A stretch of DNA of 64,000 nucleotides from Omphalotus guepiniiformis (lineage: Eukaryota; Basidiomycota; Agaricomycetes; Agaricales; Omphalotaceae): contig JAQOOI010000080.1 in the NCBI GenBank assembly GCA_028554645.1, positions 62,001 to 126,000 on the forward strand, written 5' to 3'. How positions within the stretch are numbered: the stretch's first letter is position 1; every line of letters starts with the position of its first letter. Below, piece after piece: positions 885-20,362 of the stretch. Position numbers and translations under genes: made by a program. The notes below the pieces were generated by a model, which ran no database searches, had not been told where the DNA came from, and was given only the letters and a program-made list of their open reading frames with translations.

Positions 885-1200
885 TTTGACTCATGGCCCG
901 GCCCACCTCACGACCGCCTTATTCTCATCCACCTAGTACCTCCCTGTCGCGGTCGTACATTCAGCGGAACCTCCGTTATAGGTCAAGACTTCGCAGAAGC
1001 TCTTGCAGATAACTCCCCAAAGTTTTTCTCATCGTTCTTCAAAACCGCGCCGCAGCAGAACGGATGATCGATACATTCCCCTATATCAACCAACAGACCC
1101 TCGAGCAAAACACGAGTTTTTCGAATGAGATGCGACATTTGATATCGGATGTCCAGCGTGCGTCCGATGGGGGAGGTTCTGAGGAAAGTACGTGATAGAA
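885..1200 (+). pseudogene. Unidentified coding-like fragment with a frame change
   Basis: The plus strand reads as a plausible peptide (FSGTSVIGQDFAEALADN, then FFSSFFKTAP) up to about 1,064, where it runs into TGA. The adjacent frame continues as RMIDTFPYINQQTLEQN and ends at TGA near 1,197. The two halves look like one protein split by a frame change. I do not recognise the family and see no start codon or promoter. It sits between the Old Yellow Enzyme 3' end and the left end of the large transposon. Confidence 0.3.
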
Positions 1201-1318
1201 AGGTCATTTTTCTTGTTTATGATTCATGGGAGGGAGTCGGAGGGATTAGACGAATGAGAGAGTTGTAACTTTGAGTATATGATATATGTTATGCTGAGAA
1301 CGGCCAAGACACCCGGTG

Positions 1319-1326
1319 CTGCGTGG
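1319..1326. repeat. Left target-site duplication CTGCGTGG of the 19-kb element
   Basis: The 8 bp CTGCGTGG lie immediately outside the left inverted terminus and recur in the same orientation at 20,355-20,362, immediately outside the right terminus. An 8-bp duplication is what I recall for the related Zisupton superfamily. The exact cut could shift by up to 3 bp, because the right-hand CTG could also be counted as part of the terminal repeat. Confidence 0.82.
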
Positions 1327-1369
1327 CCGTAAAATAACTAGTTAAAATCAGAACTTGGCAGTGATGACC
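1327..1369 (+). repeat. Left terminal inverted repeat
   Basis: It starts CCGTAAAATAACTAGTT and continues CAGAACTTGGCAGTGATGACC. Compared with the reverse complement of the right end, the blocks GTAAA, TAAC, AGTT, GAACT and GGC are conserved in the same order and spacing, with about 31 of 42 positions matching by eye. Confidence 0.75.
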
Positions 1370-1488
1370 GAATATCAACCTGGGTGAAGTTCAATGACAA
1401 ATCATTATATTCATTGTAAATACATTACAACGGAATGTACAGTACAGTAGTAAATAACAATAATATTAATATGCACCCGTTTGAACTC

Positions 1489-1905
1489 CCGTCGTGTAGA
1501 AATGAACTTGGTTTGAACTCGGTCGTGATTCAATGAACTCGCCGTTGGGATTTGAACTTGAGGAATGTATTGAACTTGCGTTGAGTGGATTTGAACTTGA
1601 GCATTTTGGCCTGGAAATGAACTTGCACTCGAAACATTTGAACTCGACGACTTTTGAATTGAACTTGAAGGTTTTGAACTCGAAACATTTGAACTCGACG
1701 ACTTTTGAATTGAACTTGAAGGTTTTGAACTCAACGACTTTTGAATTGAACTTGAAGGTTTTGAACTCAACGACTTTTGAATTGAACTTGAAGGTTTTGA
1801 ATTGAACTCGCCGGTTTTTGTTGAATTGAACTCGCCGGTTTTTGAATGGAACTCGAGGTTTTTGAATTGAACTTGAGGCTTTTGAACTCGACGAACTCGG
1901 CTTTA
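1489..1905 (+). repeat. Left subterminal array of TGAACT(T/C)G motifs with a 36-bp minisatellite
   Basis: More than twenty copies of a TTGAACTCG/ATGAACTTG-like 9-mer occur in one orientation. At about 1,637-1,800 they are locked into a 36-bp unit (TTTTGAACTCGACGAC followed by TTTTGAATTGAACTTGAAGG) repeated four times, once with a 15-bp insert. Reading frames through the repeat exist on both strands but follow the repeat period and carry no recognisable domain, so I treat it as non-coding and probably a transposase-binding region. The same core recurs in reverse orientation at the right end. Confidence 0.8.
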
Positions 1906-2029
1906 TACTGACAAAAGAAAAAACAAAATAAACATATCGTACGCGGGTATTGTACAAGTACAATCAACGATTCTTTCAGACGCAGGTCAGATTAGATGAA
2001 CACAAAATAAAATAAAACTTACCTTCCAA

Positions 2030-2473
2030 TCACAGCAAAGAAATGAGTACAAAGACCGGAGCAACGATCTTCGAAATTACTACGTCCGGAGTTCCCTGAA
2101 ACTCGAAAAGCTCGCAATGTCGTCGATGGCCTATGAACCTGTTACGAGGAATCACACAAAAACACGAACGAAATACGCACAATGAATACAAGTATCTCGC
2201 GGGCGTTGTACGCATAACGTTTCCAGCATGGCGTGGCAGAGTTTTTCTGAACAGCAAAGAAGGAATGAGTGACAACCAGCAAAAAAAAACGAACTTACCG
2301 GCTCGAACATATTCTCGTACAGGTACCGCGAGGCACCAGTGCTGTTGTTGCCCTCTACACTGTGCAGCCCACTCTCGTTTACGTCGTCGGAGGTTGGTCG
2401 TGCGACCTATTTTGTAGTGATCGGTGCCGACGATATGGAACACGTAGAGGTATCCCGGTCTGTCCGCTATCAT
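2030..2473 (-). CDS. T5orf172 (GIY-YIG-like) domain protein, transposon cargo
   Basis: This is a small three-exon gene: 2473-2298, 2246-2177 and 2138-2030. The spliced product begins GYLYVFHIVGTDHYKIGRTT with RRRKREWAAQC, the YxY...KIGRTxN...W...C core of the T5orf172/DUF1766 domain. This domain is related to GIY-YIG nucleases and found in fungal Mug113-like proteins. Exon 2 supplies the helix AEKLCHAMLE and the CIHC motif, and exon 3 supplies HRRHCELFEFQ, completing the C...C...H...E/F pattern. The product is about 117 residues, little more than the domain itself, with nothing clearly N-terminal to it. The nuclease-like role is inferred from the family. It lies just inside the left subterminal array of the transposon. 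Confidence 0.72.
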   Translation of the reverse strand: MIADRPGYLYVFHIVGTDHYKIGRTTNLRRRKREWAAQCRGQQQHWCLAVPVREYVRAGKFVFFCWLSLIPSLLFRKTLPRHAGNVMRTTPARYLYSLCVFRSCFCVIPRNRFIGHRRHCELFEFQGTPDVVISKIVAPVFVLISLL

Positions 2474-2707
2474 CTCCGTAAAGTGTGAAGGGTGCGCGAG
2501 AAGAGAGTTGTTTGCGACGAGAGAGTGAATTGCGAAAGTGAGAGCAAGAGATCGAAGTTGTTTGTTGCCACAAAAGTCGTCGTGGTTGAATGAATTGTCT
2601 CAAGCTATTAGTGATGAGATGTTAACTACGAGATTCACGGTGAATACAACGTCACCTGATTTTGAAGAATATATGAAAGACCAACCTTAGCTGTTTTAGA
2701 GGAAGTC

Positions 2708-3145
2708 TTACGAGCTCACCGAAACGGTTTGTTGCTGGCGGCCGTGGGAATTTGATATGGAGAGTGCCTCGGTACGTATCTTGCTCGCTCTGCAGTGATG
2801 AGGACACTGTAGAAGGACAATGTCTGTAGGTTCTGAAATAAAGAAAGATTCTGAGAGATAGAACACGTCCAGAATCAGTACAAACTCGGGATCAGGCCAC
2901 CGTTGAAACCGAATTGAGCATGTGCGCACGAGCGGGGCAATGTGTGGGGAAGCAAAGAACTGGAGGCGTTCAAAGGCTTGGGCAAGCCCCTTGCGCTGGA
3001 AAGTCTGAAAAGAGTATTTGACGGTCTCCCAGGAGTACTCACAGACAATAGTGAGATTGCGATACAAGTAGGAATGAGTAAGCCAACGAAACGAGCGACA
3101 AGTCAAAGCAGTGCTACGCAAGCCAGGAAGATCCAGCTTGTGCAA
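2708..3145 (-). pseudogene. F-box-like protein fragment
   Basis: An open stretch without an ATG reads LDLPGLRSTALTCRSFRWL, like the second half of an F-box, followed by HIAPLVRTCSIRF, like the start of a leucine-rich segment in mushroom F-box proteins. No first half of the F-box and no downstream repeats are visible, so it is a fragment at best. It lies between the T5orf172 gene and the PRPF31 fragment, inside the transposon. The family assignment rests on weak sequence resemblance. Confidence 0.35.
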
Positions 3146-3259
3146 AGCCCCAGGGTAAAGCTGCAGTGCTAGCGCTATTGCGGCGCACTTTTCATGTGAG
3201 ATCGTGGTTGTACCGTTTATGAGCTGAATACTCGCTAATCATATTCTTTTTACTAACAG

Positions 3260-3800
3260 CTTCTGGGCGCTCAGAAAAAGATAGCAGCCGGATTTTCCTC
3301 TGTGACCCAGAGACGGCAGCCCGGTTTCGTTTTCCAGTCTGAACTGGTCACACAGACACCGCCAGAATACCAGATAAAGATTCAACGAACAATAGGAGCC
3401 AAGGCTGTTCTTGCAGCACGAATGGATTTGGAACGCCAACAAAGGGATGGTAGGCTTGTTCCTCTGTGCTCTACCTACTCTCGTTCCTTTGACGATGCGC
3501 CATCATATAGGTAGCTATGGAGAATTACTACGAGATAAGGTCGAAAAGCAAATAGATCGTCTTGCTGCTCCCCCTCCATCAAAGGTAGTACGGTTTACTC
3601 ATCGCGCATGACTTTAGTGCACGGAAAGCAAAGGAAGCTTACACACAAACGGAGCTGCGCAAGTTACAGAATCGTATGGCGTTTTGGCGAAGCAGAGGAG
3701 GAAGTGGGCGCGTTTGACGAAACGAAGGGTTTGGGTATGATTGATCTCGGGACCGGTAAAGTCAGAGAAGGAATGGGAGAGGCAAAGAGTAGAGGTTTGC
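3260..3800 (+). pseudogene. Captured fragment of splicing factor PRPF31 (Nop domain to C-terminus)
   Basis: PRPF31 is a U4/U6 snRNP protein. The first piece (3,260-3,449) reads [14 protein letters not shown] and [24 protein letters not shown] donor and TAG acceptor still bound an intron up to 3,510. The second piece (3,511-3,584) reads [14 protein letters not shown], and the third reads [18 protein letters not shown]. An extra T at about 3,684 then shifts the frame before [18 protein letters not shown] and TGKVR. The N-terminal half of the protein is absent and the linker after PPPSK is shortened. Retained introns show capture at the DNA level, not by reverse transcription. The fragment lies within the 19-kb transposon. 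Confidence 0.82.
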
Positions 3801-4036
3801 TGGATTTTATTCTTTCTGTTGCCCCTTTCATTGATTCATATCGCTTTTGTTAGCTAAAATGTCAAAGGAAGGCTTGTTATTCGTGTATGCTTTATCATCC
3901 GTCCACAGAGGAAGCGACAGTGGGGAAAGCAGGGGGACATTCATCTTGGCTGGGTACAGACAGAAGGTAGAGAAACTGAAGTAACAGGTTTTACAATCGT
4001 GATATTACATTCGCACTCCATCCCTATTACCGTTGG

Positions 4037-7000
4037 TTATATGGACAGCGTAGGATCAACAAATGGTGGACGTGCACTGGCAAATCCAATGAGTGTCGCG
4101 CTTCGTAAGAGGGAACATTGAAACAAACCTCTTGACGATAGGGAACGTGCGCCGCTGCTCGGCCCGCCACTTGCGCACCTGGTCGGCTAGCGTCGAGCCA
4201 GGGGGTACTTCCCGAAGTATGTCTATCCCGCACTTCTTGAAGAGGTCTTGACACTCCTTCTCCAGATTTTTGTACAAGATTGCTTGCTGTTTTGCATAAG
4301 CCACGTGTCCGGGGGTGGATTGTTTTGATGCCAGGCTTGACCACACCTCATACATTTTGGCAAATGCTCGAATACATCACATGAATTCGGCATGCTTGAT
4401 TTCTACTTGTTCTTCCCATCGCTCGAAGTTCGCTTCATCTCGGAAGAACTTCACTCTCTCCTCTATAGATACTTTGCTGTCAGTATGTTGTTCAGCCACT
4501 TTTGTACGTCACTCACGCTCCTCTGCCCATTCATCCACCTTGGCAGAATCTAAACCTCGCCGCCAAATCCATCCGTCCTCGCTACTGGTGTGCTCATCTT
4601 TGGCCTTCTTCGCTGGCGGGGCTACAATCGACTAGCATGAGGTGGTTCTTGAAAAAACCATAATCGTAATACCTACCTTTTGTGGGCGATGCCTGTCGCT
4701 TCGGTGCTATAGAAAAATGAATTAGATATAATGACCTTGACCAAACATGTTGCTAACTTGCCTTTTCGTCTTGTCATTTCCGTTGCTCCTCGTGACTCTT
4801 GCGTGGATGATGAATCTTTTTCGGTCCTCTCCCACTTCATCCCATTCCTGGCCTGATCAGTTTCGATAGATATACTAGCAGCAGCACCTGCTCTCCATAA
4901 AGCTCCATCCATGTGCCGCGATGCCCCAGGACCCCGTTTGACTGTAGTCTGTTGCCGCCATGTATCCTCCTCTCGAAGCTCTTGCCACTCTTCTGAATCC
5001 TGTTGGATGGCGCCCAGGTTCACGAGAGCTCGACGATGACGATTGTAGTGATATAACTGTTCCTTTCGCCTTGCAATATAATTGTTGATGACAGTTGTGC
5101 TGCGAGTGTTCTGGTCCTGACCACGATGGTGGACAGCCTTGTAGTCTCCGGCTGCAGTCAGCATGCGAACGGTCGCCTGTAACTCGAGGATCAAATCCCA
5201 TGCTAATGCCTTTCGCAGGTCAATCTCCTTTTGAGCCAGTTCGCCCAGCCCTAGCTCGAGGTATTGATCGACCGGCACGTCTGAAGGGATCCATAGAACC
5301 TCGTCCTCCACATCACAAGGCTTCGCTGTACACACCAAGTCCTCTATGCTCGGCATTACTATAGGCTGTTGAATGCGTAATTTCTCAATCCTTCGCGAGA
5401 GCTTCACTCTTCGTTCTTCTATTTCTTGCTGAGCTTTATCGTCTGATCTCCTCCCTGTTGCCCGAACATCCTTCCCCTTGTGTTTGATGATCGCTCTAGC
5501 TGAGATATGAGTAAAGTACGGGATAAAAAGTGTGATTCAGATTGAACGCACTGAGCTTCCTGAATTGAAAGTGCTTCTTTCAGGAACCGACCGATCAATG
5601 TCTCCTGTACCACAGCGTCGACGCCGCATGATATGACTGCAGTGGACTTGAGCATTTTCTGCATCAACTGCGTGAACGATAGCGCTGGAGAGACAGCATG
5701 TCAATAAAATCCATCAGATTACATTACATTGACCTTGACCGTATTCTCACCTTTACTTGAAGCCTGAGCATAGACCGAATGAACCAGCCATTTTTTTTTC
5801 TTGTCGATGGTCGGAGAACGATCTTGCTGGTTCCAAGCCTCGAGCTTGTTCTGGTGAATGACGCATAAAGCACGAAAATTGTCTCGAGCTTGAATGTGCC
5901 GATTCACTGCATATGTGAGCTCCTTATACAGCTGCTGACCTGCATCTTTTTGTTGGTGAGCTGGCCCCTGTTTTCGATATTATGTGCACTTACCCATGTT
6001 CAAGACTTTCCGAGAAGACCAAGCCATAATCATTTCAATGATCACATCTTGCCGATGGCCGTTGCTCATTTGTCTCACCGCAGGACCAAGAGCATTTGTT
6101 TCCCCCCAAATTCCCTCCGCACTCTCTCCGTAGAAGTGGCCTGTGCATTCTTTGTAGGCTGAGGCAAACAGATACATGCACATGTCGAGATGATTGCGAA
6201 CATGCATGGCAGGAATGGTGAAGCGCATGTCGCGAATGACGTAGGCCAAATCTGGAAACCATGCGGAGAATCGTTGCAACAGATGTACAGAATAATTACA
6301 CTGGCTATCGTAGCTCAGCACTTGATCTGGAACACGACCCTCTGTGAATTTGGTCCGACGCAGTGCATGCGCCAACGCCAAATCCGTATTCGCAAAACGT
6401 TCGCCAACCTGCAGGTCCACGATTCCTTGTGGTATCCCATGGTCACACATCACATTGACCACCCCAGTAATGTCCATTCCCCTGAACTTTTTCTTGTTTT
6501 GCCTGGAGATAGCGTTCAAATAGGTGCAATTGGCCTTCTCCTCCTTCGATTGCTGCAATTCACCATTTTCCGTCGTGATGCCCTGCTTATTATGTGCTGC
6601 GTCCTTCTGAAGCTGTGGTACCTCGTCAATATACTTCTTTTCTTCTTCATGATGCGGAAATATTGAGCGTCCTTCGTATAATGAGACGTCTGTCCCATCG
6701 TGATTTTTGCTGAAGTGATTGAGCTGAAAATTCCCATCAAGTGTTCGACGACAGGAATGGAGATGCCTGAGATCATTTGGTACACTCTCCCAACCATCCT
6801 CCATATTCACGTTCTCTTCTGGACAGCTCGGGCAAAAGACGGCGAGGTTTCCACAGGGGCGATGGGTCAGCACGCTGTCAATGCCGTGGCCTTGCCCTGA
6901 CCATTTGTTCGCTCGCATGAATGCCCATAAGCGCGTAATGGCGAGGAAATTGGCGTAGAACTCTGGCGCGGTGTGCGAAAAGTTGTAGTCGGTAAGCTGA

Positions 7001-7786
7001 GCAAGCGCTCGACAGTAATCATACGCGTGCTTTTTGGACGATTCCGAATGTAGCTGAAATTCTCTGAGCACTTTGAAAGTGTACGCAGTTTTCGGCTCTA
7101 CCACTGACCCAGGGAACAGGTTCGCAGCGAACAGTTGGTCCCATTTCTCAGGTCTACCCATGCAGTGACAGTACGAAACTCGAGTTGCATGTGCACCATT
7201 ACTGTCTATGACATTCAACAACAGAGCATCCTCGCCGTAAGGGCAAGGGTCTCCTTCGTGTCCCAGATGGATAGACCATTGCGGACTCAGCGCAGACAGG
7301 TCGTGACGCCTAAAGTAACTATCTTCAGGTCCCCAAAACTCCGCCCAATGAAAAGGTAAATGTGTGTGGCATGCCAGGAAACACTGATTGCACAGTGGCG
7401 CTAACTGGAAGCAATCCCTGCATCGCGTAGTCCGAATGCGTTCCGCACAAGAACAAGGCTGTCCTATACGTGGATCTGCGTCCTTTGAGATGTAAGAACG
7501 AAGTAACGCTTCGGATCTCATCCCATACTGCTCCAAAAGATTGGCACGCTGCACTGAATATCCTTAGCCTGTCGCACCTACACATCGTACCAAGCAAGCA
7601 ACGTACTCGTGTCTTCACTTCCGCCTCGTTGACGTTCAAATTCGAAGCCTCTCCCTGTGACATGTCATTCGCACCATCTCCCTGTAGACTAGGACGAATA
7701 GTGTTCTGCAGTTTCTTTGCCGGACGGTCCACTAAGATTTGAGCGAGAATATCCGGTTTGGTGGGACGTCTCCGGTTTGGTGCCAT
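4037..7786 (-). pseudogene. KDZ-family transposase with CxC2 cysteine cluster, inactivated
   Basis: This is the cut-and-paste transposase of the element. The ATG is at 7,786; exon 1 ends at 7,591 and the main exon runs 7,553-5,994. The CxC2 cluster (PCSCAERIRTTRCRDC, LCNQCFLACH, PFHWAEFW) is followed by the RNase H-fold core with SYDSQCNYSVHL, HVRNHLDMC and GESAEGIWGETNALG. Downstream exons carry the usual tail: KWLVHSVYAQ, VQETLIGRFLKEAL, EERRVKLSRRIEKLR, GWIWRRGLDSAKVDEW, ERVKFFRDEANFERWEEQ. The last exon ends at 4,037. One intron near 4,760 uses a GC donor (GCAAGT). Two lesions are seen: a frame change at about 5,485-5,495 with no room for an intron, and a TGA at 4,377-4,379 in EFM*CIRAFAKM where the family has Arg. 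Without them it would be a typical KDZ protein of about 1,000 residues. Confidence 0.88.
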
Positions 7787-7915
7787 CTGCAGCCTGCGGT
7801 TAACTGTTGACTCGTGAAGGTAGTGAGTCCTAACTGACCTTGAACTTTGTTGCTTTCTTTCCCTTCCTTGGTGAGCCCGTGGACAGGCAGGGAACACAAG
7901 GACCGACCGAAAATC

Positions 7916-8030
7916 GGTAGGGAGACGACTTGCAGTCGCCTACCCAGTAACCACCAGATGTGGCTCTAATATCTGGAAATATATAGAACCAACAAGATAG
8001 TCGGTGGGCGCACGACGTGAAAGTCGCGCG
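7916..8030. repeat. Paired hairpins with GCGAC/GTCGC and ACGAC/GTCGT stems, upstream of the transposase
   Basis: The first hairpin (7,916-7,944) has arms GGTAGGG and CCTACCC around GACGACttgcaGTCGCC. The second (8,010-8,030) is CACGACgtgaaAGTCGCG. The same paired 5-bp stems recur at 14,185-14,236, 14,349-14,393 and 17,098-17,140, always in gaps between element genes. A role as promoter element, terminator or transposase site is inference. Confidence 0.6.
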
Positions 8031-8489
8031 AGGGTTGTCCCACGAGAAGTGGAAAAGGCCTTTTTTTGAGGGGAGTAATCCCGAGCGGGCGACAAGAGAG
8101 GAAAAGACCGGAACAAGGTAGCAATCAACGGACGGTTTTCAGAGTCACGAGATTTTGTCGATAAATAAACACCTAACCCTAGTTCGTGCCCTTACTCACC
8201 CCCTATATAACCTCTTCGAATTCTGGTCTGGACTAGCTCGTGTATCTGTACTTACTATATCGTTTATGCAATATGATTTCAATGCTTTCGCTGTCCATAA
8301 GGGTCGATACGGATAATATTGTAAAATATGAAAAGTATTACAAACACGCTGTTATACATTGCACCGGACTGATATCATTTCCTGCGAGCCGCGTCGTTTT
8401 GAAGTCCTGATGTTGTAGCTACATTGACATTGTTGAACCACGACGAGCTGTCGATGTACGTGTCCACACCCTATATATCTCAGTGAGGC

Positions 8490-9250
8490 ACTGTCATTCA
8501 ACACTCAGTTACCTCAAACATACCATGTTCAAGCTGTTTTTCTCTTCCCGCTCTTCCGTTTTTTGCTCCGTGGCGCTCTCAGGCCTTTGCCTGGAAAGGG
8601 GTTGTCAGTTTCTAACACTGAAGCGAAGCCGGCACGAAACTCACCTCGGCTCTTCTTCAGCTGTATGCTCCCTAACAAGATGCTTCAATCCACGCAATGC
8701 AACTTCGTTCCAACTCAACGTGTTCAACGATGTTGCGGCCTCTGCGCCACTCTTTCCTTCTTTGGCAGTCACTTGCTGCTTCGTTCCTCTAGATGCGACT
8801 GCGTTCCGAATTGACGCGTCGTTCAACGTTGATCTCGGGGTTTCTCGTCAGCTCCTGAGACTAGTAAGAATGCGTAACCGAAACCTCACTTTGTCTCATC
8901 TTCAGCTGTAACCGGGGTGATGAGGTGCTTCAAGCCACGCAACGCGACTTCGTTCCAGGTCAACGCGTTCGACGAGGTTTCGGGCTCGGTCCTTCGACTG
9001 GTGTGGGGTGGTTGGCTGTCTGCGCGTCTAACAACGTCCTGAGACGTACCTCGTTTCTGCTCTCACTTGCTGTTCGTCTGATGCGACAGTGTTGCAGTTT
9101 ACTTCCTTTATCAACATGGTGGAAACGGGGAGGAGGTGGTCAATCAGAGAATGTAGTACTTACTTATATGACTGCCAATTGTGAAACTTGTGAAGGTGGT
9201 GAAGGTGGTGAAGGTGGAAGATGGATCAGTATGTTATGTCTGTATTGAAC
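8490..9250 (-). other. Possible small gene built from LNxxxWNEVALRG repeats
   Basis: Read on the minus strand, two exon-like blocks encode NTLSWNEVALRGLKHL (8,661-8,738) and NALTWNEVALRGLKHL (8,910-8,985). Each continues to TAE-E and ends at a GTGAG donor. A weaker third unit, LNDASIRNAVASRGTK, precedes the first. Differences between the two main copies fall mostly at third codon positions on this strand, which suggests selection on the protein. After 8,651 an intron ending CAG leads into QRPESATEQKTEE. I could not join all blocks in one frame, so the gene model is incomplete and may be broken. No family is recognised. Confidence 0.35.
9188..9218. repeat. GAAGGTGGT microsatellite
   Basis: Three to four copies of the 9-mer GAAGGTGGT (variant GAAGGTGGA at the end) lie just upstream of the LNxxxWNEVALRG blocks. 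Confidence 0.7.
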
Positions 9251-9489
9251 GACATATCTTTCATCTATATTGCCTCATTTGCATTTGCCTGCCTGCCACG
9301 TGCTGATCCCGGTACGCGCACGACCTTTCCCAAAAAAACAGCTCGCGTTTTCACCTTAGTGTCCCCTTCCCCACATGTTGGTCACAACAATTCAATATTG
9401 AGCTTGGCAACAAAAAACACAGTGATGATGATGTTGGAGATTAGTGCTACATGTTGAACTACATTTTAAAAAAAACAGAAAAGCAATAG

Positions 9490-11648
9490 TCAAGCAGGCA
9501 GGCGACGAGGTAGAACAGGCGGGCGTTTGAGTACGACGAAGGCTGACTGAACGTAAAATTTAACAATGTTATGCTCCCATTCTTTCCCGCGTGACGGTAA
9601 CAGGTTCAGGTCTGCATCAATCCCGCGTCGCCAGATAACAGGCTTCGAACCCGACCAAGTGTCCAGTAACCGCCAAAAATGCCTCAGAGCGTGATATCGT
9701 TCCACCCAATCCTCTGCAATAAGGCCTACATTCGCGTCAGGGAATGGCTGAAAGGTGGTCCCTGTTTGAAATATTTTGTCGACCAAGGCTTCTCGGGCTC
9801 GACGGTGCTGAGCTTCCGCAACTGCAAGTTGGGCTGCGCTCTCATTGACTGACGGTCGTGGTTTCGAAGAGTTCAATTGACGATCAACTGCAAGCAATTC
9901 GTGTCTGAAGTTGATCATTGCCAGCTCCCATATAAGTACTTGACCCCGCCTGCGGTCGAACGGACCTGTTCGCGAAGTCACAGGCGACGCCTTCCCACCG
10001 AATCGGTCCATAGTGTCTCGCACCAAATGAAACGCATGACTCTTTATTGCCTGCTTTTTTGTCTCAATCGCCCGACCAGGATCAGTATTCAGTGTTGGCA
10101 TGTTCAGAACCTTTCTCCACGTCTCGGTGCTTTGTGGCTCCACAGGCGTCTGCAAATCTCGGCATCTCGCCAACCACGCTGGACGGAAATGCTCCCATTG
10201 ATGGAGAAGGTTGTCCTGTCGCCCATCGGTTCAGACGCCAAAGAACAAACCGGGATCTGGCACAACGAAAAACTTCTTTTGCTGAGTGATGCCCTGAGTT
10301 TGTATGGTGAGATTGACTCGCTCCCATGATGGAATCGTCGCTGGTGCCATTGCATCCGTTGAATCATAGTCGTCGAAAGGATTGCGTTCCTCGGGTGGTG
10401 CTACATTGAAAGGTAGAATATCAGTAAGAGTGCCTCAGTGTGAGTAGATATTGAAAACTGACGCCCCACGCCCTTTCCAAACCGAGGTTTGGCGGAAGTG
10501 CCCCTCTTGGACTGGCTGTATGGGCTCACAGCAGCGGCGTGATTGATGCGGTCATTCCTAATAACTCCGGTCGACGTTTCGGCAGGTTGGGCAGCGGCAG
10601 AGTGCGAGTACACAGGGGAAATGATACGATCGACCCCAACCCGATGGGACGACTGGTAGTCCCCCGGATGGTGGCTGTTTTGGAAAGGGCTAACATCTAA
10701 GAAACAATTGATGCCGGAAATACGAATGGCTGCGAACTTCGTCTCAGACCCAGCCTGTGTAGTGGCGATAGGAAGGTATGGGGGCTTGGCCTGGGCTACG
10801 CAGATCTTTGGTGGGGCAGGTTGTATTAACTGCACCTCCTTCTGAATGACCTGGCAGCGGAAGCTTGAGTAGGGTCGCACAAAGTACACAGGGAGTCCGG
10901 CGCGAAATAGCAACGAAGCCTGGGCATCGTCCCACACAAACGCACCAAGACGTGTGGCGCACGTTACTGTGGCTGCCTGTCCTTCACCCCTCATCAGCGC
11001 AGAGAATGTGTCGACATAGTCAAACATGGCCTGCAAAGTCAGCCACGCCCTTTGTAATTCCACCAACCCTCGTTGAAGATCACGGATAGGGGAGGCAATG
11101 GTAGTGATGTGGATGAAACAGATCTCCATTGTTTGACGCAGTTCCCCTACCAAAGCTCTGTCACGGCCATCAGACGAGGTCAAGAAGAACTTTTGTGTTC
11201 GATCCTCCATCTCTTTCACGGCTCGTTGGAGGTCCTCCTTGAAATCATTGGCGTAACCAGTGGTACCGCCTACAATTGCCTGTCGTGTCGGACTGTCCGG
11301 GAAAAAATGGAGGTAACAGTCTTTAATATCGCTCCACATGACTCGATAATCCCAAAAAGGCCAAAGTTCATCTTCAGGTCGCACTGGTATGCATGCAAGA
11401 TAAGGATACGTTGGATGGAAAGGTTGCGGCCAGCGACAAGGGTCATCCGGACCATAGCGAGCGTCGGACCGACGATATATATCTCGAGTGGATCCATAGG
11501 GAGGTTCTGGAATGCTAATCATGTTGGGGGAGGTGATGAACGCCTGGATTTTCGGCAGGAGTGCTCCTGTTACGCCGTCAGAGTACGTGATTTCGACACC
11601 TTCTTCGACCTTGTTGCGGGTAAGATTGATTGAGTGCGTTGCTGACAT
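9490..11648 (-). pseudogene. Large unrecognised element gene with an in-frame stop
   Basis: The first exon starts MSATHSINLTRNKVEEG at 11,648 (an in-frame ATG exists 12 bp upstream) and encodes a soluble protein of about 390 residues with CATRLGAFVWDDAQASLLF and AGLPVYFVRP. A GTCAGT donor and TGTAG acceptor near 10,470-10,410 lead into PPPEERNPFDDYDSTD and FFVVPDPGLFFGV. There a TGA at 10,231-10,233 interrupts a frame that continues unbroken as TDGRQDNLLHQWEHFRPAW for over 240 more residues to a stop at 9,490. CGA-to-TGA is the simplest explanation. I recall the GAFVWDD/GLPVYFVRP pattern from hypothetical Agaricomycete proteins without known function. It is transcribed towards the transposase gene. 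Confidence 0.65.
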
Positions 11649-11660
11649 TATGCTACACAT

Positions 11661-12135
11661 GGAATGAGAAGTATTGAGAATTATTACAAGCCATGAAGGA
11701 AACTGGAAACGCACGGCTCAGTCCTTTATGCAATGCAACCAGTAAAACACCAAATGGAACCGATGGAACAGTGACAGACGCCAAAATGGCGCCGCGATCT
11801 AGACTAGCACGAGATGTGCTAGTGTTTTGCAGAAGCACAATGAAGTGCCTGTGTTCAAGAGATAGCGTTCAAAGCTGTGTGAGGAAGTAGAGGAAGGAGG
11901 AAGAATATTAAGTTAAGCGCCGCGGCGCCACATCAACTGGCTCGTTAAGCGCTCAGCGCTCAGGCCACAGCGCTGCGCCACACGCAGCCCCATCTATCAG
12001 GGCACCACTTATTTAACCACTTATCAATATATCAGGCACTACTTACTTGACATCAAAACTCTCATAAAATGTGACGTTGTGTGGTTATAAGCCAAATATA
12101 TATTTATCGTTAATGTAACTAACACTATTCACGAC
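11661..12135. other. Gap inside the transposon
   Basis: No coding signal is seen. At 11,913-11,985 there is a run of GC-rich palindromes (GCGCCGCGGCGCC, TTAAGCGCTCAGCGCT). The rest is AT-rich. Confidence 0.5.
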
Positions 12136-13000
12136 TCATTGAAACATCGGATGAAGTGCAGCTTCCACTCCCTCAGCACATAGTTCCTTGTAAAACCCGA
12201 CGGCGTCGTCTCTGTTTCGCCAAGCGTTACAACGTCTTTAGCGACAGTAAAGGGGGGAACACTTACAGATCCTCAAAGACTCGACACTGTTCCTTCCATT
12301 GTACCACATGCCGCAGACTCTGACCATCCACTACTTTTCCCTTCGCTTGCTGCCGTTTCTTCTTGGGGCTCGCAGGCGAGAACGTGCACGGAGGATCAGT
12401 TCCCATGTACTGAAAAGGATCGGCAGGGTCCGGAATACGAGGTCGAGTAGGTGTAGCAGGGCCTGAAGGGGAGGATAAGAGACGAAAGCGCTGTGTGAGC
12501 TCCACCACTGATGCACCCTGAGCGACTGATGCAGGCTGAGGATTGACGCGATGAGTGGAGGGGTTTGCAGCGGTAGGCGATGACGGCAAAGGTTCAGAGG
12601 CTGGAACTGAAGGCGAAAAGGGAGACCCCACGAAAGGTTGCAGTGTGCCTGTCCAAGGATTCACGAATGAATCGTCCTCGCCATCGCGGTGATCGTGACT
12701 TTCAAGGCATGCAAACCTCCACCATTTCAAGGCCGAGTCCTGCGAGCTGAATTTCCGGGTTATGGCCTGCACCTTTTTCGCTTGAAGGCTGGCACGATTC
12801 CTGCAGAGCATTAGAATATCTGTTTCGAAGAAAAGGTCACGGACTCACCAGTCCTCATAAATACCAGCTTTCGCTCCGTCGAATAGCACATAATAAGACG
12901 GGGTGACACTGTTATAGACAGGGCTTTTCAGGCAGTACAATGGGGGCTTGCAACCTCGGCGAGGGTCGCCACTAAAATCATTATCACTGGGGTTGCTCAT
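12136..13000 (-). CDS. RNase H1 N-terminal (RNA:DNA-hybrid-binding-like) domain protein, no catalytic domain
   Basis: There are three exons: 13000-12849, 12800-12267 and 12235-12136. Residues about 33-85 match the RNase H1 N-terminal/caulimovirus-P6 fold: SYYVLFDGAKAGIYEDW, then KKVQAITRKFSSQDSALKWW. In RNase H1 this fold binds RNA:DNA hybrids. A low-complexity Pro/Ser linker follows (PSSPTAANPSTHR, PATPTRPRIPDP), with the basic patch SPKKKRQQAKGK. The C-terminal exon reads RCNAWRNRDDAVGFYKEL and ends HPMFQ. That last segment resembles a second, degenerate copy of the W...A..FYKEL half of the fold. No RNase H catalytic domain is present. Reading frame and splice sites are intact. It may bind nucleic acid for the element; that role is inference. 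Confidence 0.78.
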
Positions 13001-13301
13001 GGATGAAGGATAAGAGGACAGTCACACTGGTGTGACCATCTAAACCAGCAGGATCCGCGAGGCATCCATCACGGCCACATAATTTTCTTTTGCAGGTCAA
13101 ATGATTTTTCAACGACCGACAAGAAAGGATTCTGATCGCAGGGGTGATGATCTCTATGCAACCAATAGCAATCTATTCAGAACTCGTAAACTACGATACA
13201 TCACGGACTAGAACCAAGGAAGGTCAAATCAATAACTTCGCGCTCGGGGGAGGAGAATCCCATTGCTGTATCTCCATCAGCTGAAGAGGGGAAAGACGAT
13301 G

Positions 13302-14043
13302 TTAGCTATCAATGACAGGGAAGTATGGGTGGCACAACTGACAGTCTGGAGTGGCTGCGCGGGGTGCAGGAACCTCAACGATGTTATGCGGAGTGTACCA
13401 ATGGGGGTTATAGTGAAGACGGTGCCTAAATACTTCAGGCCTCCCAACAGTGCGAACGAATTCACTGAACGCAACCCGAACGTATCCTCGAATAGAGGTG
13501 CTGAAAGCTAAGGGTTTCCTCGGGTCGCAAAGAGGGCCGCAAGGAACTGCTCGTCTCATCGCGTCTGTCGGGCCATGGGTCCTAGACCACACTGTCCGAT
13601 CGGCACGCTCGTAAAGGACAACCATTGTGCCGAGGACACAGCGCTGGAGAAAGCTGGTCCTCATATGTTGGGGCTGCTCGTTGGCGCACTCCCTATGTTC
13701 ATGCCCTTCGGCCACACACTATAGATGTAAAATGGTAAATTCTGTTAGCGAGGCGCGTGGTAAGGACATATTGACTGACCTCTTGTAGAGTTTGCCCCAT
13801 TCGTGAGAAGTCATTACGACCGTAATCAATCCAGCGGGCCAGTTCACACGAAGGGAACCTGGGGTTGTTCACTACGGGCTGCACGATGCCGTAGATGACA
13901 TGCTTGAGCATGTATTCGAGCGCACGAGCAGGTGAGACAATAGGTGGGACAGACGAAAGAACACCCAGCAGGTTCTGGACGTCCGTGTTGAGGGGGTCAT
14001 TGTGAGGTTCAACGCTTTGAATGTCCACGTCCATGTTGAGCAA
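13302..14043 (-). CDS. Unrecognised transposon-borne gene, two exons
   Basis: It starts MLNMDVDIQSVEPHNDP at 14,043. Exon 1 ends at a GTCAGT donor after RMGQTLQE, and an acceptor near 13,720 leads into AEGHEHRECANEQPQ and a Cys-containing C-terminus (CQLCHPYFPVIDS) ending at 13,302. The product is about 220 residues and soluble. I recognise no domain. The intron begins GTCAGTCAATATGTC, nearly the same as the intron start (GTGAGCCAATATGTC) in the gene at 15,820-16,930, which may point to common origin of the two genes. Confidence 0.55.
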
Positions 14044-14167
14044 TGCATCAAGTTGGAACTGTTATATACGCTTCAGCACCCAATCACAGGTAGGCAGTGG
14101 TTGACGCGTATACCTGTTGGGGTGACCCGAAACTACGGACATGCAGCACTCTGATAGGAGAAGGTGT

Positions 14168-14460
14168 TACGGCAGGAGCCGCCCGGCGCGCGACTCCAGG
14201 TCGCTCGCCACACAGAACGACGCAAGGGTCGTCAAAGCAAAAAGCAAAATAAAATAAAAAAAGGAAAAAAAAAAAGGAAAAAAGACCCAGTGCTGAGTTG
14301 TACTGGAAGAGAGTTGATACGCGCTTGTTGTTACGGCAGAAGCCGCCCGGCGAGCGACCTGGAGTCGCGCGCCGCACAGAACGACGCAAGGGTCGTCAAA
14401 ACGAAAAAAAAACCCAATGCAGAGTTGTACTGGAAGAGAGTTGATATGCATTTGTCGTTG
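14168..14460. repeat. Tandem 165-bp repeat whose central hairpin is inverted between copies
   Basis: Two direct copies (about 14,168-14,330 and 14,332-14,460) share TTACGGCAG-AGCCGCCC at the left and ACAGAACGACGCAAGGGTCG plus GTTGTACTGGAAGAGAG at the right. The 25-bp hairpin between them, 14,185-14,209 (GGCGCGCGACTCC...), appears in copy 2 at 14,349-14,373 as its exact reverse complement (GGCGAGCGACCTGG...). Each copy is followed by the second stem ACGACgcaaggGTCGT. Confidence 0.8.
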
Positions 14461-14559
14461 TGGAGCTAAGTCACGTGAATCGGATGAATAATTCCACGAT
14501 CACGCGCAAGCAAAGGACCACGAGGCTCACATGAGCCCAAGTAATCGTCACTCTTTTCT

Positions 14560-15120
14560 TAACCTTCACCTCGTCCGGCGTTGGCCACTTCATTGTGGTC
14601 CATCAAGCATGGCGACCGGTGTGTCGTTAGTGCAGTCTGACCATAGGTCACTACCATTTTTTCGAATATATCTTTGTTGACCCGCGGGATAAGACCCGGT
14701 ACCTTCAACTAGTTGTTACCTGAAGACCTACCTACTATCGTACTTAAGTTATCCTTCACCTCGTCCGGCGTTGGCCACTTCATTGTGGTCCATCAAGCAT
14801 GGCGACCGGTGTGTGTCGTCAGTGCAATCTGACCATAGGTCATAACCACTTACGAATATATATTTGTTGAACCTAAATTGATACCGGAAGACCCTACTGT
14901 CGTACAAAATTTATCGTTCGCCTCGTCCAGCGGTGGCCACTTTCCTTGTGGTCCAGCAAGCATGGCGACCAGTGTGTCGTTTAGTGCAATTTGACCATAG
15001 GTCATTGCCTTTTTTCAAATATATCTTTTTGGTCCAGCGGATAAGACCTCCACTTGTGGTTGAGAGAGCATACCGACCGTCGCGTCGTTAGAGAAATTGA
15101 CCATAGGTCACTGACACAAT
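14560..15120. repeat. Tandem array of 155-190-bp units
   Basis: Units start near 14,563, 14,753 and 14,911, with a partial unit at about 15,030. Each carries CCTCGTCC(G/A)GCG, GGCCACTT, TGTGGTCCA-CAAGCATGGCG, ACC(G/A)GTGTG and TTGACCATAGGTCA in the same order. The TGACCATAGGTCA core is itself a palindrome. No coding signal is seen in it. Confidence 0.8.
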
Positions 15121-15229
15121 GAAGATGAGTATTGCCGGACTGCCCAGGCATGCGGTTCATCTGAAACGCATTTAGTTTTGTTTTTGTTGGCCAGGGCTCG
15201 CCGGCGCACTCAGAGCTCAGTCAGTCTCC

Positions 15230-15600
15230 TTATAGCTAGAGCGAGAGGGTTGTGGGGAGCGGGTGCACTTTCGTGCACCTGGTTCGATCTTACAAGATTG
15301 GCGGGAAGTGTTGGTCAGAAAGGAAGGAAAAACCAATGATCGAATTTCAGAGCTTTGCTCCGAAGGTAGGCGTCATCATTGAAATCCTTTTGAGTTGTGC
15401 TGAATCTCAGTATGGCTAGACCGAGAAGTGCAGGCTCAACTTCGGGCGCCAGTCGTGCAGGTGGTGCTATCAAGATTGACCGGAAGGGTTGGTTGGGAAG
15501 GGAGAACGTTGAATCCAATCGGCAGTTGCGCGTCAGATGGATTAACTAGAAGTGTTAGCATTGCCCCGAAGGTAGGTCACATAACTGAAAATCGATTTGA
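15230..15600. repeat. Degenerate direct repeat of about 200 bp, no gene
   Basis: Two diverged units share CAAGATTG-CGG-AAG-GTTGGT, AAGGGA/AAGGAA, and CCGAAGGTAGG. The first also contains the hairpin GGTGCACtttcGTGCACC at 15,264-15,280. Confidence 0.5.
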
Positions 15601-15819
15601 GTAACAACCCTGATAGATCCCGATTGTTCTGTGACACAAAGTTTCTAATATTATTTCTTGAGTTTCTTAGCGAAGAATGCAGCAACTTTCAAGAATTTTA
15701 TTTTTGCGGTAAGTCAATTGCATGAATTTTTCACAGACCCACTAATCTAAACACATCGCTACAGAATACTACTACTTTTTTCTCAGTTTTTGGTTTTTCA
15801 AATGTACTTCGAGCGGTAA

Positions 15820-16930
15820 TCAAAATTGTTTCACTAAAAGATCCCACCCTGGAGTGTTGGTGATTCCCACCTTGCGAAAGAGCAACAAATCACCAGGCTG
15901 GACTCGGAGATCAGTGTCCCAATTAATTGGGGCCCATCGAACCGCTCGTTTTTTGGAAATCTCGAAGCGGTCGCCGGTCTCGATGCCAGATTGGCCCAGT
16001 CGAATCTTGTTGGAATCGAGTGAGAGACGAAAATCGCCGTGGAGTAAAATGACTACCCTGCGAGCGGGGAGTCCATCCTGGAATGAAAATTAGCTCTATT
16101 TGCGCGCATGTGAGAGCAGGAAAAATGTACCTGAAGCCAGAAGCGCAAAGTTACCTTTCCAGTGGGGCAAGGGGAGTCTACAGCGGGTGTAGCGGGAGAG
16201 AGGCTACGAGGCCTGTTTGAAGCGTTTGAGCGGTACTGACGTTGGGGCGTCCTCGGGGTCGAAGCGGAGCTTGCAGATAACGTGCTAACAGGAGACGACA
16301 GATTCGCTCGGAACGGGGTATACGGCTCAGTCGCGCGAGTGGCCCTCGTGGCACGTAATGCACCAGTGGTAGCCCGAGAGGGGCGACGCAAATCTTCGCG
16401 ATAGCGTAGCCTATCGGCGATGAAACCCTCTTCGAAGACTTCGGGATGTGACTCTCGCAAGTTGATATGGGTAACGTAGTGGCGGTCACGAAAGAAATAG
16501 GAAGCGCGTGCTTCCACGAATTGCTGTGATGCAAATGGTCAGGCTGGGTCATCACTGAGACATATTGGCTCACCTCCTCGTACCAGCGACCGATGTTAGA
16601 GAGGTGGCGGTCACCTGTGTCGAGGTGAAGACCACGAGCACCACGAGGTGGAGGGATCAACCGGCGCAAGTGCTTGACAAGATCACGCTCGATCGCACGC
16701 ATCATAGTCTGCTTGTCGCCTTGATAGACGAGAGCGACCTCACCGTATCGTTCGACGTACCCTTCTGGACGCATGAAAGGAAGGACAAGAAGGGGAGGGG
16801 AAGCAAGTATCAGCTTTTATGACCTGAGCCCTACGAGGAGGTCAGTACAGTCAGATATGTTCACGTACACATAGGGACTGTTCGGCAGTGCCGGGTCAAT
16901 TTTTCGTAGACTTGCTGGTTGTCTGGTTTC
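15820..16930 (-). CDS. Unrecognised transposon-borne gene, basic Ser/Arg-rich middle
   Basis: An upstream exon ending near 16,870 reads NQQVYEKLTRHCRTVP; the start lies further upstream and was not fixed. The next exon reads EGYVERYGEVALVYQGDKQ, then RDLVKHLRRLIPPPRGARG and a GTGAGC donor. The third exon holds RDRHYVTHINLRESHPEVFE and a Ser/Thr/Arg-rich stretch (SASSASTPRTPQRQYRS). The last exon reads RRVVILLHGDFRLSLDSNK, GDRFEISKKRAVRW and QPGDLLLFRKVG and stops at 15,820. The C-terminal part predicts beta strands. Frames join cleanly, so the gene may be functional. No family is recognised. Confidence 0.6.
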
Positions 16931-17097
16931 AAGTTAACGAGTGTTCAGATCTGGAGATCTGAAGTCTGGAATTCTCAGGCCGTAAAATCATTTTCTCTAG
17001 GTATCCAAATAAACAAGTAGAAGGCAAGAAAAACAACAAACAAAGTTTACTGTGCCAACCGAGGGGGAAATTTGATCGTCTCTCCATACCCAACCTT

Positions 17098-17140
17098 GCG
17101 CGACTTTCAGGTCGCCAGAGCACACGACGTCAAGTCGTGT
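17098..17140. repeat. Paired hairpins GCGACtttcagGTCGC and ACACGACgtcaAGTCGTGT
   Basis: This is the same two-stem module as at 7.9-8.0 and 14.2-14.4 kb, here about 120 bp before the plus-strand gene at 17,263. Its position in front of or between element genes in each case suggests a shared regulatory or transposition function; this is inference. Confidence 0.6.
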
Positions 17141-17262
17141 TTGCGAGCTGACATCTGGTCAGCCCACACTGAGTTCTCCCCCCGCCTCTGACCCGTCGTA
17201 GTTCGAAAACTTCCGGATGGACACATCGGAAATCTCGGACCTGCTGACCGCGCCTGTGGACT

Positions 17263-19632
17263 ATGGAGGTACGCTACCCAGAGGTTTCCGTAGATGCAAC
17301 TGAGGCACTGACGCGTCATTTAGCGCGTTCTAATAAACGAAGAAAAGGTCCTACAGGAGTTCTGACCGCGGAGCAGAAAGCAAGAGTGGATATGCTGATG
17401 CCGTCATGGACTGCCGTCTTGGAGGCGAATCGTGTGGCAAAGAAGCCGTATCGGTCCAAAAACCCGCCTGAGGTGTTGGCGTGGCTGCAGGCGGTAGCAG
17501 TGAGGCTGCTGGACGAATCGCCCGAGTTTGCGGCAGTTAGAGAGCAGAGAGCGTTGATTAAGGTGGGCCTTGAGAGTTGAAAGATGTTTGGTTTGGTTCT
17601 GACAACTTTCCGCCTGTAGAACATTGTTTCTGCCTTCAAGAACTACCACTTTCGTCAATATAGCGAGGAGTCAAACACGGTACAGTCACCCGTTCCCCCC
17701 GACGCAGGCAAAAGCCATGATCGCGTGGTCTTCAGTAACCCTTCGAAAGCTTCGGCGGTCTTTTTCTCGTTCCAGTCGAGGGTTTCCGGCAAGGACATCT
17801 TCAAGGAGGAGAGACTAGAGGAAATCAGAAAAAAAGCAAAGGAGCTACAGCTGTCGAATGATGCTGAAGGACGACAAAACAACAATGCGGGTTTGTTTGC
17901 GCGCGCGCTCGCAATCTGTTATCGCGAGTGTGAGGAGAAGGAGCGATACGAGCAGAGGGCAAGTGAACTAAACGTCAACGAAAAGGAGTAAGTTAAACCC
18001 CCCTCCTCATTGAAATTATACAGCTGAGCCTCGGAATAGGAATCGCGCAAAGTTCTTAGGAGCGGCTCACAGCACACTCTCTGCCATACGAGATACTGGA
18101 CGCTTAGGACAAGTCGGCATGCAGTTGATGCTGGCGTACATGAGTGAGAGTGGTCCACGTGCGACTATGTGAGTTGTTCCTTTGATGCTGTCAACTAATC
18201 AACTTACATTTTTGCGGTTCAAGGTTACCAATTGACCCTGTATGGAAGCCTGAGGGCGAGGAATGGGAGGACGATACCGAGTACGTTGACCGATACGCGT
18301 CTTGGGCCGGACAATTTCTTTCAGCTGGTACGTTGAGTAACTGGTGCCGCCTCGAGTTGATATTGATTGACATTCGAAACATGCGCAGTGCACACACAGG
18401 ATAACGGACAGCGCCAACACGAGATACCCTCGAATAAGGAGGGTGTTCCGGTCTTTCCCGAGGTCGATCTGTGGAAGATGACAGGTGAGGAACAGAGTGC
18501 GTTGTATAACGCTTATTTCAGTAGAGTTTGGGGTACGTTCGTTTATTCTACACCTTGCGCAGGGCAATGAATCTGACCTGATCATTCAGAACACAGCTGG
18601 CCTTTTGACACCACTATGCCAGCAATCCCATGGGCTGATATTGCGGAGACTCCAAATCTATTCTACGATACACAAACGCATACGATGCCCAGACCACTTG
18701 TAGCAGCAGACTTACTTGAGCTGAGCGACATCATGAGCGTGAATAGTTCAATGAGAAAACACTCGGGAGTCGAGGCGGCGTGCCCATTCGTGTTCTACCC
18801 GAAAGCTGTTATCCAGCAAAACCTGCATTCACATAAAACGTCGGTTCAGGAATCATGGTGTGAGGGTGAAGAGGTCGATGGCAAATCGTCGTCACCGATG
18901 GTCATGGGTGACATTCCCTTGGGTGAGGAATCTGCTGGAGAGGATGACGAAGCGGTGTGGCAGGGCATTGAGGACGATGTCAAGTCATCGTCACCGATGG
19001 TGATGGGTGACATTCCTTTGGGTGAGGAAGGTGCTGGGGAGGATGACGAAGCGGTGTGGCAGGGCATTACACAGTCGGACAAGACGCCAGGGGACGAGGA
19101 AGAAGACAAAGAAGAATGGCAGGGTATTGCCCAGGAAGAAGAGGGAGATGAATGGCAAGGCATTGCCAAGGGCTCAGTGGAGTCACCAGGCGAGGAGAAA
19201 GCGATCGACGTCGGGCGTTCGGAGATCATGCATCACGAAATCGGTTCCAGTGAAATGGGTACAACAAGACCAACACGGAAGAAGAGGGCGGCTGTGAGTT
19301 CTCCACGGGCTCGGTCGGCAGCTCGAGCGTCAGTGCGATTGGGAGCAAGAGGTCTCAGTGCACCTGCTCCTTTGGACGCCACTCCCAGCCTTTTCATGAA
19401 TGGTGTCCCACGACCTGAACAGCCAAAGGAGTGGACTGAGAAGCAGCTTTGGGGAGCGGGGGCACCATCGGGATGGAGGGGTTATGCGATGTTGACGGAT
19501 GATGGACAACCAATGTCTTGGGTCCCTGGCCTTGGATTTGTAGAGGTTGATGAGCACACTCAAAAAGTGATTCATCGCGACGAATTTGACAATGTTCGCT
19601 ACTATGACCGACCGACACGGACTACCAAGTAA
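17263..19632 (+). CDS. Large acidic unrecognised transposon-borne gene with internal duplications
   Basis: At least six exons run from an ATG at 17,263 (an alternative ATG at 17,218 reads MDTSEISDLL but is out of frame) to TAA at 19,632. Early exons give HLARSNKRRKGPTGVLTAEQ and a coiled, Lys/Glu-rich segment (EERLEEIRKKAKELQLS). The middle reads AKFLGAAHSTLSAIRDTGRL, WEDDTEYVDRYASWAGQF and MTGEEQSALYNAYFSRVW. The last exon begins AIPWADIAETPNLFYD. It contains two copies of SSSPMVMGDIPLGEE, each followed by AGEDDEAVWQGI, then two shorter EEWQGIAQ/DEWQGIAK units, a basic patch (TRKKRAAVSS) and a C-terminus with WRGYAMLTDDGQ. It is about 700 residues. The acidic repeats plus basic patch suggest a nuclear protein; function unknown. 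Confidence 0.65.
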
Positions 19633-19664
19633 AACTCGTCTTTGTGTGCGTGCCCGAAGTTTTT

Positions 19665-20340
19665 ACTAACGTGGTCAAGTTCACTACTAATGGTGCGACT
19701 TCATCAGTGCAATGTCAAGTTCATTGGTGGGGGTGGAGTTCATTGGTGCTGAGTTCAAGTTCATTAGCAAAGGTGGAGTTCATTAGTCTGGTATGAAGTT
19801 CATTACTGACAAAGCTCAAGTTCATTGGTAGGGGTGGAGTTCATTTTGTAGTCTCAAGTTCATTATTGACGAAGTCCGATCATTACGGACCTGGCGCAAA
19901 TTCATTAGCAAAGGTGGAGTTCATTTTTTAGTCTCAAGTTCGTTACTGACGAAGTCCGAGTTCATTAGTGGTGACAGAGTTCATTACGGACCTGGCGCAA
20001 ATTCATTAGCAAAGGCGGAGTTCATTTTTTAGTTTGGAGTTCATTATTGACAAAGTCCCGAGTTCATTACTGACGATGGAATGATGGTCATACCTGGCTC
20101 TGGTTGAACAAGAAGGTGAAGTTCATTACTCCAAGGCTGAAGTTCATTAGTGGCATGGGATTCATTACAGACCCAGCTCAAGTTCAATACGCAGGTGAAG
20201 TTCATAAGTAGCCAAGTTATATTTCATTAGGTTACCAGTACATTCACGCAGGCTTTTGTTGTAGTCTACCATTATGTAATCAAGCAAGTTCATTTGAAGC
20301 CAGATCAAGTTAGGTGATGACCGCCGAGTTCAGAATAGAA
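19665..20340 (-). repeat. Right subterminal array of AATGAACTT(G) motifs, inverted relative to the left array
   Basis: More than twenty copies of (A)AGTTCATT(A) occur at irregular spacing of about 18-40 bp. On the minus strand they read AATGAACTTGAG or AATGAACTCC, matching the left array motif (ATTGAACTTGAGG and AATGAACTTG). No reading frame of note crosses it. With the left array it forms a pair of inverted subterminal arrays. Confidence 0.8.
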
Positions 20341-20354
20341 CTGGTTAAAATTTA
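20313..20354 (-). repeat. Right terminal inverted repeat
   Basis: On the minus strand it starts TAAATTTTAACCAGTTC and continues CTGAACTCGGCGGTCATCACC, collinear with the left end from GTAAA onward. Confidence 0.75.
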
Positions 20355-20362
20355 CTGCGTGG
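20355..20362. repeat. Right target-site duplication CTGCGTGG
   Basis: Perfect direct copy of the 8 bp at 1,319-1,326. The empty site would read ...CGGTG, CTGCGTGG, AAGGTACTG... Confidence 0.82.

Follow-up and report, generated by a model that had tools for sequence, protein, structure and literature searches.

The window analyzed in this study is a stretch of 64,000 nucleotides (64 kb) from Omphalotus guepiniiformis, which belongs to a contig (JAQOOI010000080.1, positions 62,001 to 126,000; here called C79) of a 42.5-Mb genome assembled in 80 contigs. It contains a KDZ-type DNA transposon of 19,029 bp. With a probability of roughly 85% we regard this element as a complete and recently mobile cut-and-paste KDZ transposon which moves as a 19-kb unit, possesses the core genes F, H, I and J, has captured host DNA and carries inside both ends arrays of the motif TGAACY (Y being T or C) as candidate binding sites. 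By comparison of diverged families in one genome, conserved transposon machinery could be separated from captured cargo within one element. This ties four uncharacterised protein families to a poorly studied transposase class, together with a defined candidate DNA motif, and makes a direct test of accessory-gene roles in large eukaryotic DNA transposons possible.

Copies and limits of the element

The window element was mobile recently, and its whole gene set travels as a 19-kb unit with a 7-bp duplication of the target site. An initial annotation of the window had predicted a complete KDZ element moving as one unit and had proposed a search for further copies by their ends. In our search of this genome, the end probes gave six matches for the left and three for the right end, the window included. 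The genome holds a full-length copy on contig C36 as well as a split copy on C31 and C49, which confirms the prediction. The C36 copy (19,019 bp) is 99.3% identical to positions 1327-20355 along its entire length and has equivalent ends, different flanks and a different 7-bp duplication. On C49, element positions 88-19029 are present at 99.4% identity. The missing left end is located in C31 and has the CTCATTT duplication on its outer side, as at C49; both halves represent a further insertion that is split by another mobile element. Besides, C75 holds a partial copy. The limits and ends of the window element are as follows:

1320..1326, no strand: left target-site duplication TGCGTGG, 7 bp; this length fits 5/5 readable insertions
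1327..20355, no strand: complete KDZ element, 19,029 bp; full-length C36 alignment, limits from five insertions
1327..1370, plus strand: left terminal inverted repeat (TIR), imperfect, inner limit approximate; 33/44 aligned positions match the right end
1480..1890, plus strand: left subterminal TGAACY array; 22 forward and 1 reverse motifs in the left 900 bp
19678..20293, minus strand: right subterminal array of inverted TGAACY; 22 reverse and 0 forward motifs in the right 900 bp
20312..20355, minus strand: right TIR, imperfect, inner limit approximate; from end-to-end alignment
20356..20362, no strand: right target-site duplication TGCGTGG

The initial annotation had assigned an 8-bp duplication to the element, and this length has to be corrected. 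At 1319 and 20355 the window contains the 8-mer CTGCGTGG, which is found nowhere else in it in either orientation. With 657 matches across the 42.5 Mb, or one in roughly every 64 kb, this 8-mer draws its weight from the placement at both ends and from the other copies, not from rarity. At all five insertions with both ends readable a perfect duplication of 7 bp was found: TGCGTGG in the window (C79), CGGGAGC in C36, CTCATTT in C31/C49, CGTTTTC in C38 and AGTAGCG in C41, the last two being diverged relatives described below. The eighth base is mismatched in four of these (C36, C31/C49, C38 and C41) and matched in the window alone. As the duplication is 7 bp and not 8 bp, the element comprises positions 1327-20355.

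The ends had been described as imperfect inverted repeats with inverted subterminal arrays, and both descriptions hold. The termini of the window element read CCGTAA.../...TTTAC, and 33/44 aligned positions within the outer 60 bp are identical between the two TIRs. This score was equalled by none of 5000 draws of interior pairs (pairs less than 120 bp apart being skipped) and by 2 of 5000 draws when 80-bp pieces from the whole window were used. The left terminus is CCGTAA in C79 and C36, CTGTAA in C38 and C41, and GTGTAA in a further relative on C72, of which a single end was read. The TGAACY motif is strongly polar, with 22 forward and 1 reverse occurrences on the left and the mirrored 0 and 22 on the right. 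In 300 dinucleotide shuffles the motif averaged 1.4-1.6 occurrences, and the highest counts were 5-6.

Among the three copies we counted 72 single-base differences, which were polarised two against one with no outgroup. C>T or G>A changes account for 56 of them, 50 of which lie in CpG. This bias suggests decay of the copies by cytosine methylation, and the host presumably methylates copies of the element. In the C49 copy, the left end of which is interrupted, the models tested were free of stops (for KDZ, the first four exons only). At 1687-1836 indels of 20-52 bp, and at 19879 one of 21 bp, make the array length differ between the near-identical copies.

The mobile element that interrupts the C31/C49 copy (C31:129548 onward and C49:55864 onward) is bounded by inverted repeats which are 1500 bp or more in length and 99.9% identical. 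Its ends read CACTGGGCCCG and it is flanked by a 3-bp duplication. Its middle part is unassembled between the two contigs, and the element may be very large; it includes an open reading frame (ORF) of 446 amino acids (aa) at L073:2282-3622 on the minus strand.

The transposase

A CxC2-KDZ transposase inside the element had been predicted as well, and this prediction was borne out by Pfam:

4037..7548, minus strand: CxC2-KDZ transposase, about 1003 aa in a multi-exon model with an uncertain 5' end; PF18758 and PF18803

The match to PF18758 covers residues 271-512 (expectation value (E) 5.6e-44) and that to the CxC2 domain PF18803 residues 94-189 (E 5.1e-26). The protein thus shows the layout of the KDZ superfamily, a PF18758 domain preceded on its N-terminal side by a cysteine cluster, and the 7 bp found at 5/5 readable insertions agree with the duplications of about 7-8 bp of this superfamily. 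The stretches LDGNFQL, YDSQCNY and HFxGExxExxW are retained in the transposases of C79, C38 and C41 and may contain the acidic catalytic residues of KDZ. Starships carry a DUF3435 tyrosine recombinase as their first gene. Pfam searches of 10 ORFs and 5 proteins of the window yielded no DUF3435 match; a KDZ transposase is present instead.

In a tree restricted to KDZ sequences of this genome (31 sequences, 116 columns, no named Kyakuja, Dileera or Zisupton sequences), the sampled transposases linked to genes F and J, namely those of C79 with C36 and C49, C38, C41 and C72, formed one clade on a long stem with a local support of 0.994. Two groups, C16/C42/C78:739k and C7/C19/C78:328k/C34/C53:14k, are not represented in it.

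Conserved, optional and captured genes

The following features were found besides the transposase:

2030..2473, minus strand: T5orf172 gene, 3-exon model, 113 aa; PF10544 27.4 bits, cut-off 20
2744..3868, plus strand: captured host DNA composed of an F-box-like fragment (about 2744-3188) and a C-terminal fragment of the PRPF31 gene (3191-3868)
9490..11648, minus strand: gene F, exons 11648-10463 and 10400-9490; premature stop near 10231, private to the window copy
12263..13000, minus strand: gene RH, encoding 229 aa with an RNase H1 N-terminal (Cauli_VI) domain; PF01693 27.3 bits, cut-off 21
13302..14034, minus strand: gene H, 227 aa; conserved in C38, C41 and C72
15820..16774, minus strand: gene I, 266 aa; conserved in C38, C41, C72 and the C7/C19/C44/C78 group
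17263..19632, plus strand: gene J, 670 aa in a 6-exon model; repeats of 33 aa and of 12 aa

Two diverged relatives on C38 (14,375 bp) and C41 (21,363 bp) are bounded by target-site duplications, collinear with the window element and alike in their terminal plan. Their TIRs are identical at 48/52 (C38) and 52/56 positions (C41), and the outer 900 bp of the two ends contain 21 and 18 TGAACY motifs in C38 and 22 and 13 in C41. Both have the gene order KDZ-F-H-I-J with KDZ, F, H and I on one strand and J on the opposite strand. Moreover, in C79, C38 and C41 alike no more than about 100 bp separate the end of gene J from the right subterminal array. Amino-acid identity to the window genes is 62-63% for KDZ, 58-60% for F, 49-51% for I, 39-41% for J and 36-41% for H. 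In 17/17 gene comparisons codon position 3 was the most changed one (0.56-0.71), as expected under purifying selection; it counts against this result that the gene models were guided by conservation between elements, which favours conserved frames, and that the codon counts had no non-coding control. The relative on C72 keeps the window order for KDZ, F, a portion of RH, and H, and shows one left end; matches to I and J follow about 10 and 26 kb further along the contig, beyond the sequence examined.

A single order of F, H, I and J is repeated in diverged elements bounded by target-site duplications, and these four therefore look like core genes. Judged from these sequences, much of the non-transposase content looks like conserved working parts of the element and not like hitch-hikers. 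The initial annotation had treated all of it as cargo, which does not apply to these four genes. It had also suggested that the cargo be compared across copies: F, H, I and J were present in both C38 and C41, and T5orf172 and RH varied. T5orf172 is present in C38 (54% amino-acid identity) and had no match in C41 or in the part of C72 examined; RH is present in C41 (54%), partly in C72, and had no match in C38. Both are optional genes of the element. Their domains had been named correctly, both scores being above the cut-off. T5orf172 is a GIY-YIG nuclease-type domain and the RNase H1 N-terminal domain binds RNA/DNA hybrids. In C41, an uninterrupted ORF of 1453 aa is nested between I and J (L052:3135-7496, C41:165135-169496); read by eye, it appears to be a Copia-like polyprotein.

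Relatives of gene F are unnamed hypothetical proteins of Agaricales; those with a named source come from Lentinula, Stygiomarasmius, Collybiopsis and Marasmius. Gene H had no match and gene I no significant match in the Pfam search, and the protein database search found no relatives of gene J.

Among the non-transposase content, only the piece with the F-box-like and PRPF31 fragments is demonstrably captured host DNA, and the capture is recent. The whole piece (2744..3868) is 93-98% identical, with internal gaps, to pieces of the host locus C79:1323139-1325647. Positions 3191-3868 match the host PRPF31 region C79:1324892-1325647 at 96-98%, minus 80 bp. For positions 2744-3188, the matching pieces are 93-97% identical and belong to C79:1323139-1323754, about 1.1 kb from the host PRPF31 match. 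The captured PRPF31 fragment of the initial annotation was recovered by PF09785 (28.2 bits, cut-off 25.2); it is, however, part of a larger host stretch which includes the F-box-like fragment. The latter overlaps an F-box-like ORF whose match to PF12937 (E 0.023) is below the cut-off of that model. The PRPF31 match continues across sequence in which every frame is closed by stops, so that the capture was of DNA, not of mRNA. Both pieces are present in the window, C36 and C49 copies and in part in C75; therefore, the capture predates the spread of the copies. The piece is probably passive.

Genome-wide association of the genes

Loci were merged by hand from the matches with one coordinate each, which resulted in 14 loci for J, 20 for F, 10 for I and 55 for KDZ (98 KDZ matches). 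The limit was set at 32 kb so that C72, with 30 kb between J and KDZ, was included. Within this distance of the J loci we found F at 14/14, KDZ at 13/14 and I at 10/14; within 20 kb the numbers were 13, 9 and 10. For a random position, the chance of a neighbour within 32 kb is at most 3% for F and at most 8% for KDZ. Near the F loci, KDZ and J were each found at 14/20. Many loci are copies of one family. Going by identical scores there are about six families, and the J loci therefore do not stand for 14 independent events.

The element had been described as not being of the TET/JBP type. Consistent with this, PF12851 was found within 32 kb at 0/14 J loci and 0/20 F loci, although very divergent types (PE-type, PMC12730594) could escape the model. 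Contigs holding a match to gene I had no PF12851 match either. In the whole genome there were seven PF12851 matches, one of them over the cut-off, and two KDZ loci (C43 and C34) had such a match nearby. These matches, at C43:58688 and C34:105820, are below the cut-off and lie about 3 and 6 kb from KDZ matches, which fits the known association of TET with KDZ.

Proposed mechanism and alternative explanations

We propose that the transposase would cut at the imperfect TIRs and insert the element with a stagger of 7 bp, the catalytic steps being those assumed for the KDZ family. F, H, I and J would be core parts of the element whose order was kept over deep divergence. The opposed TGAACY arrays would be sites for an element-coded protein (F, J or the zinc cluster of the transposase) which may act in end pairing or against silencing. 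What the three families bounded by target-site duplications have in common besides the transposase is F, H, I and J, which makes these genes candidate array binders. From the anatomy of the ends, binding of an element-coded protein that pairs the ends or prevents silencing is the reading of the arrays that we favour, at somewhat less than even odds. The helical model of the better-predicted C-terminal part of an F relative fits DNA binding but does not show it. More tentatively still, the clade may be a separate KDZ lineage with its own multi-protein machinery, in which the transposase depends on F and J, perhaps with H and I, as partners that read the TGAACY arrays and so bring distant ends together or prevent silencing. 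If so, F and J (perhaps H and I) would fill the place of TET/JBP in other fungal KDZ elements, and such a machinery could explain the continued mobility of elements of 14-21 kb.

Several observations weigh against our reading of a complete mobile element with a conserved core. All copies, families and locus counts come from a single genome. An insert-free site, which the initial annotation had hoped for, did not turn up in this genome: the joined flanks matched only the separate window flanks and two partial stretches of 72% identity. Gene F of the window has its private premature stop, and gene I of C36 has a 2-bp frameshift under the gene model of the window. F, H, I and J have no recognised domain to base roles on, and the structure model of the F relative is of low confidence (mean predicted local distance difference test score (pLDDT) 53.8). 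The association is incomplete as well. The C7/C19/C78 group has an inverted F at 16-17 kb from KDZ, and the J locus on C44 has no KDZ match. F occurs without J within 32 kb at 6/20 loci; at five of these six (C59, C46, C24, C37 and C26) KDZ is absent within this distance, too, and on C12 the KDZ found about 21 kb from F belongs to another clade.

These F loci would also be expected if the non-transposase genes were host-derived passengers, a Starship-like cargo that possibly serves the host. The captured F-box/PRPF31 piece and the coming and going of T5orf172 and RH among related elements point in the same direction. We nevertheless consider this improbable for the gene set as a whole, as F, H, I and J keep one order across three diverged families bounded by target-site duplications, F accompanies J at 14/14 loci, and no relative of J was found in the protein database. 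Even less probable is a KDZ element that was invaded by a second mobile unit carrying F to J and fixed later. The F locus on C59 without nearby KDZ and the distant, inverted F of the C7/C19/C78 group would suit such an origin; it is countered by the single gene order inside TIRs and 7-bp duplications in C79, C36, C31/C49, C38 and C41 and by the end of gene J close to the right subterminal array. Large near-identical copies in one assembly could in principle result from segmental duplication or from an assembly artefact. Given the differing flanks, base-exact ends, five distinct perfect 7-bp duplications and diverged families with a like terminal plan, this explanation has a negligible probability.

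The arrays themselves might be the product of neutral satellite growth, with F and J acting in another step such as counter-defence at the RNA level. The variable array length among near-identical copies is compatible with this view. However, motif and strand polarity are kept at both ends in families whose transposases are only 62-69% identical, and we therefore consider neutral growth rather unlikely, though far less so than the alternatives for the gene set.

Relation to known elements

Very large KDZ elements with extra genes have been described: those of Ectocarpus reach 30.3 kb and many of their families have extra transcribed genes, an active KDZ element of Chlamydomonas measures 31.7 kb, and fungal KDZ elements frequently carry accessory genes (PMC12477816). 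The window element resembles these giants in size and extra genes, and most of their accessory genes are of unknown function (PMC12477816). Since size and accessory genes are thus already in print, the distinct class of giant cargo-carrying KDZ element that the initial annotation had suggested is overstated. Kyakuja elements have 7-bp duplications and no TIRs, and a Dileera family has 8 bp (Kojima 2025, PMC12730594). The TET/JBP families of Kyakuja in Agaricomycotina share the KDZ transposase and the 7-bp duplication with the window element (PMC12730594). Kyakuja-1/2_LB of Laccaria, however, have 5'-CA..TG-3' termini, no TIRs and TET/JBP (PMC12730594), whereas the window element starts with CCGTAA, has TIRs and subterminal arrays, carries four additional conserved genes and gave no PF12851 match. 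KDZ1-3 of Cryptococcus neoformans, which were observed transposing, are similar in their large size (about 9-11 kb) and in having TIRs (PMC12810828). They differ by CxC1 in place of CxC2, by TIRs of 139-241 bp and by duplications of 8 bp (KDZ1) or 4-8 bp (KDZ2 and KDZ3), and the accessible text describes no conserved orphan gene set (PMC12810828). In the literature searched, as far as the sources were accessible, we did not find this gene set, this terminal plan or the division into core and captured genes; KDZ ends of Marasmius oreades are given in the supplement of PMC8290104.

The plan of the ends also recalls another group of transposons. CACTA/En-Spm elements, which belong to another transposase superfamily, have subterminal repeats, the protein TnpA and a 3-bp duplication. 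Opposed arrays of a short motif inside both ends and an accessory protein beside the transposase are common to both, in contrast to the duplication of 3 bp there and 7 bp here.

Neighbouring sequences

Outside the element, a stretch of 1 kb (window 1-861; C79:61838-62861) ends about 460 bp to its left and is repeated in inverted orientation at 29119-30134 with 92.8% identity. At C79:55168-55900, some 6 kb to the left of the window, there is a KDZ element of a different clade.

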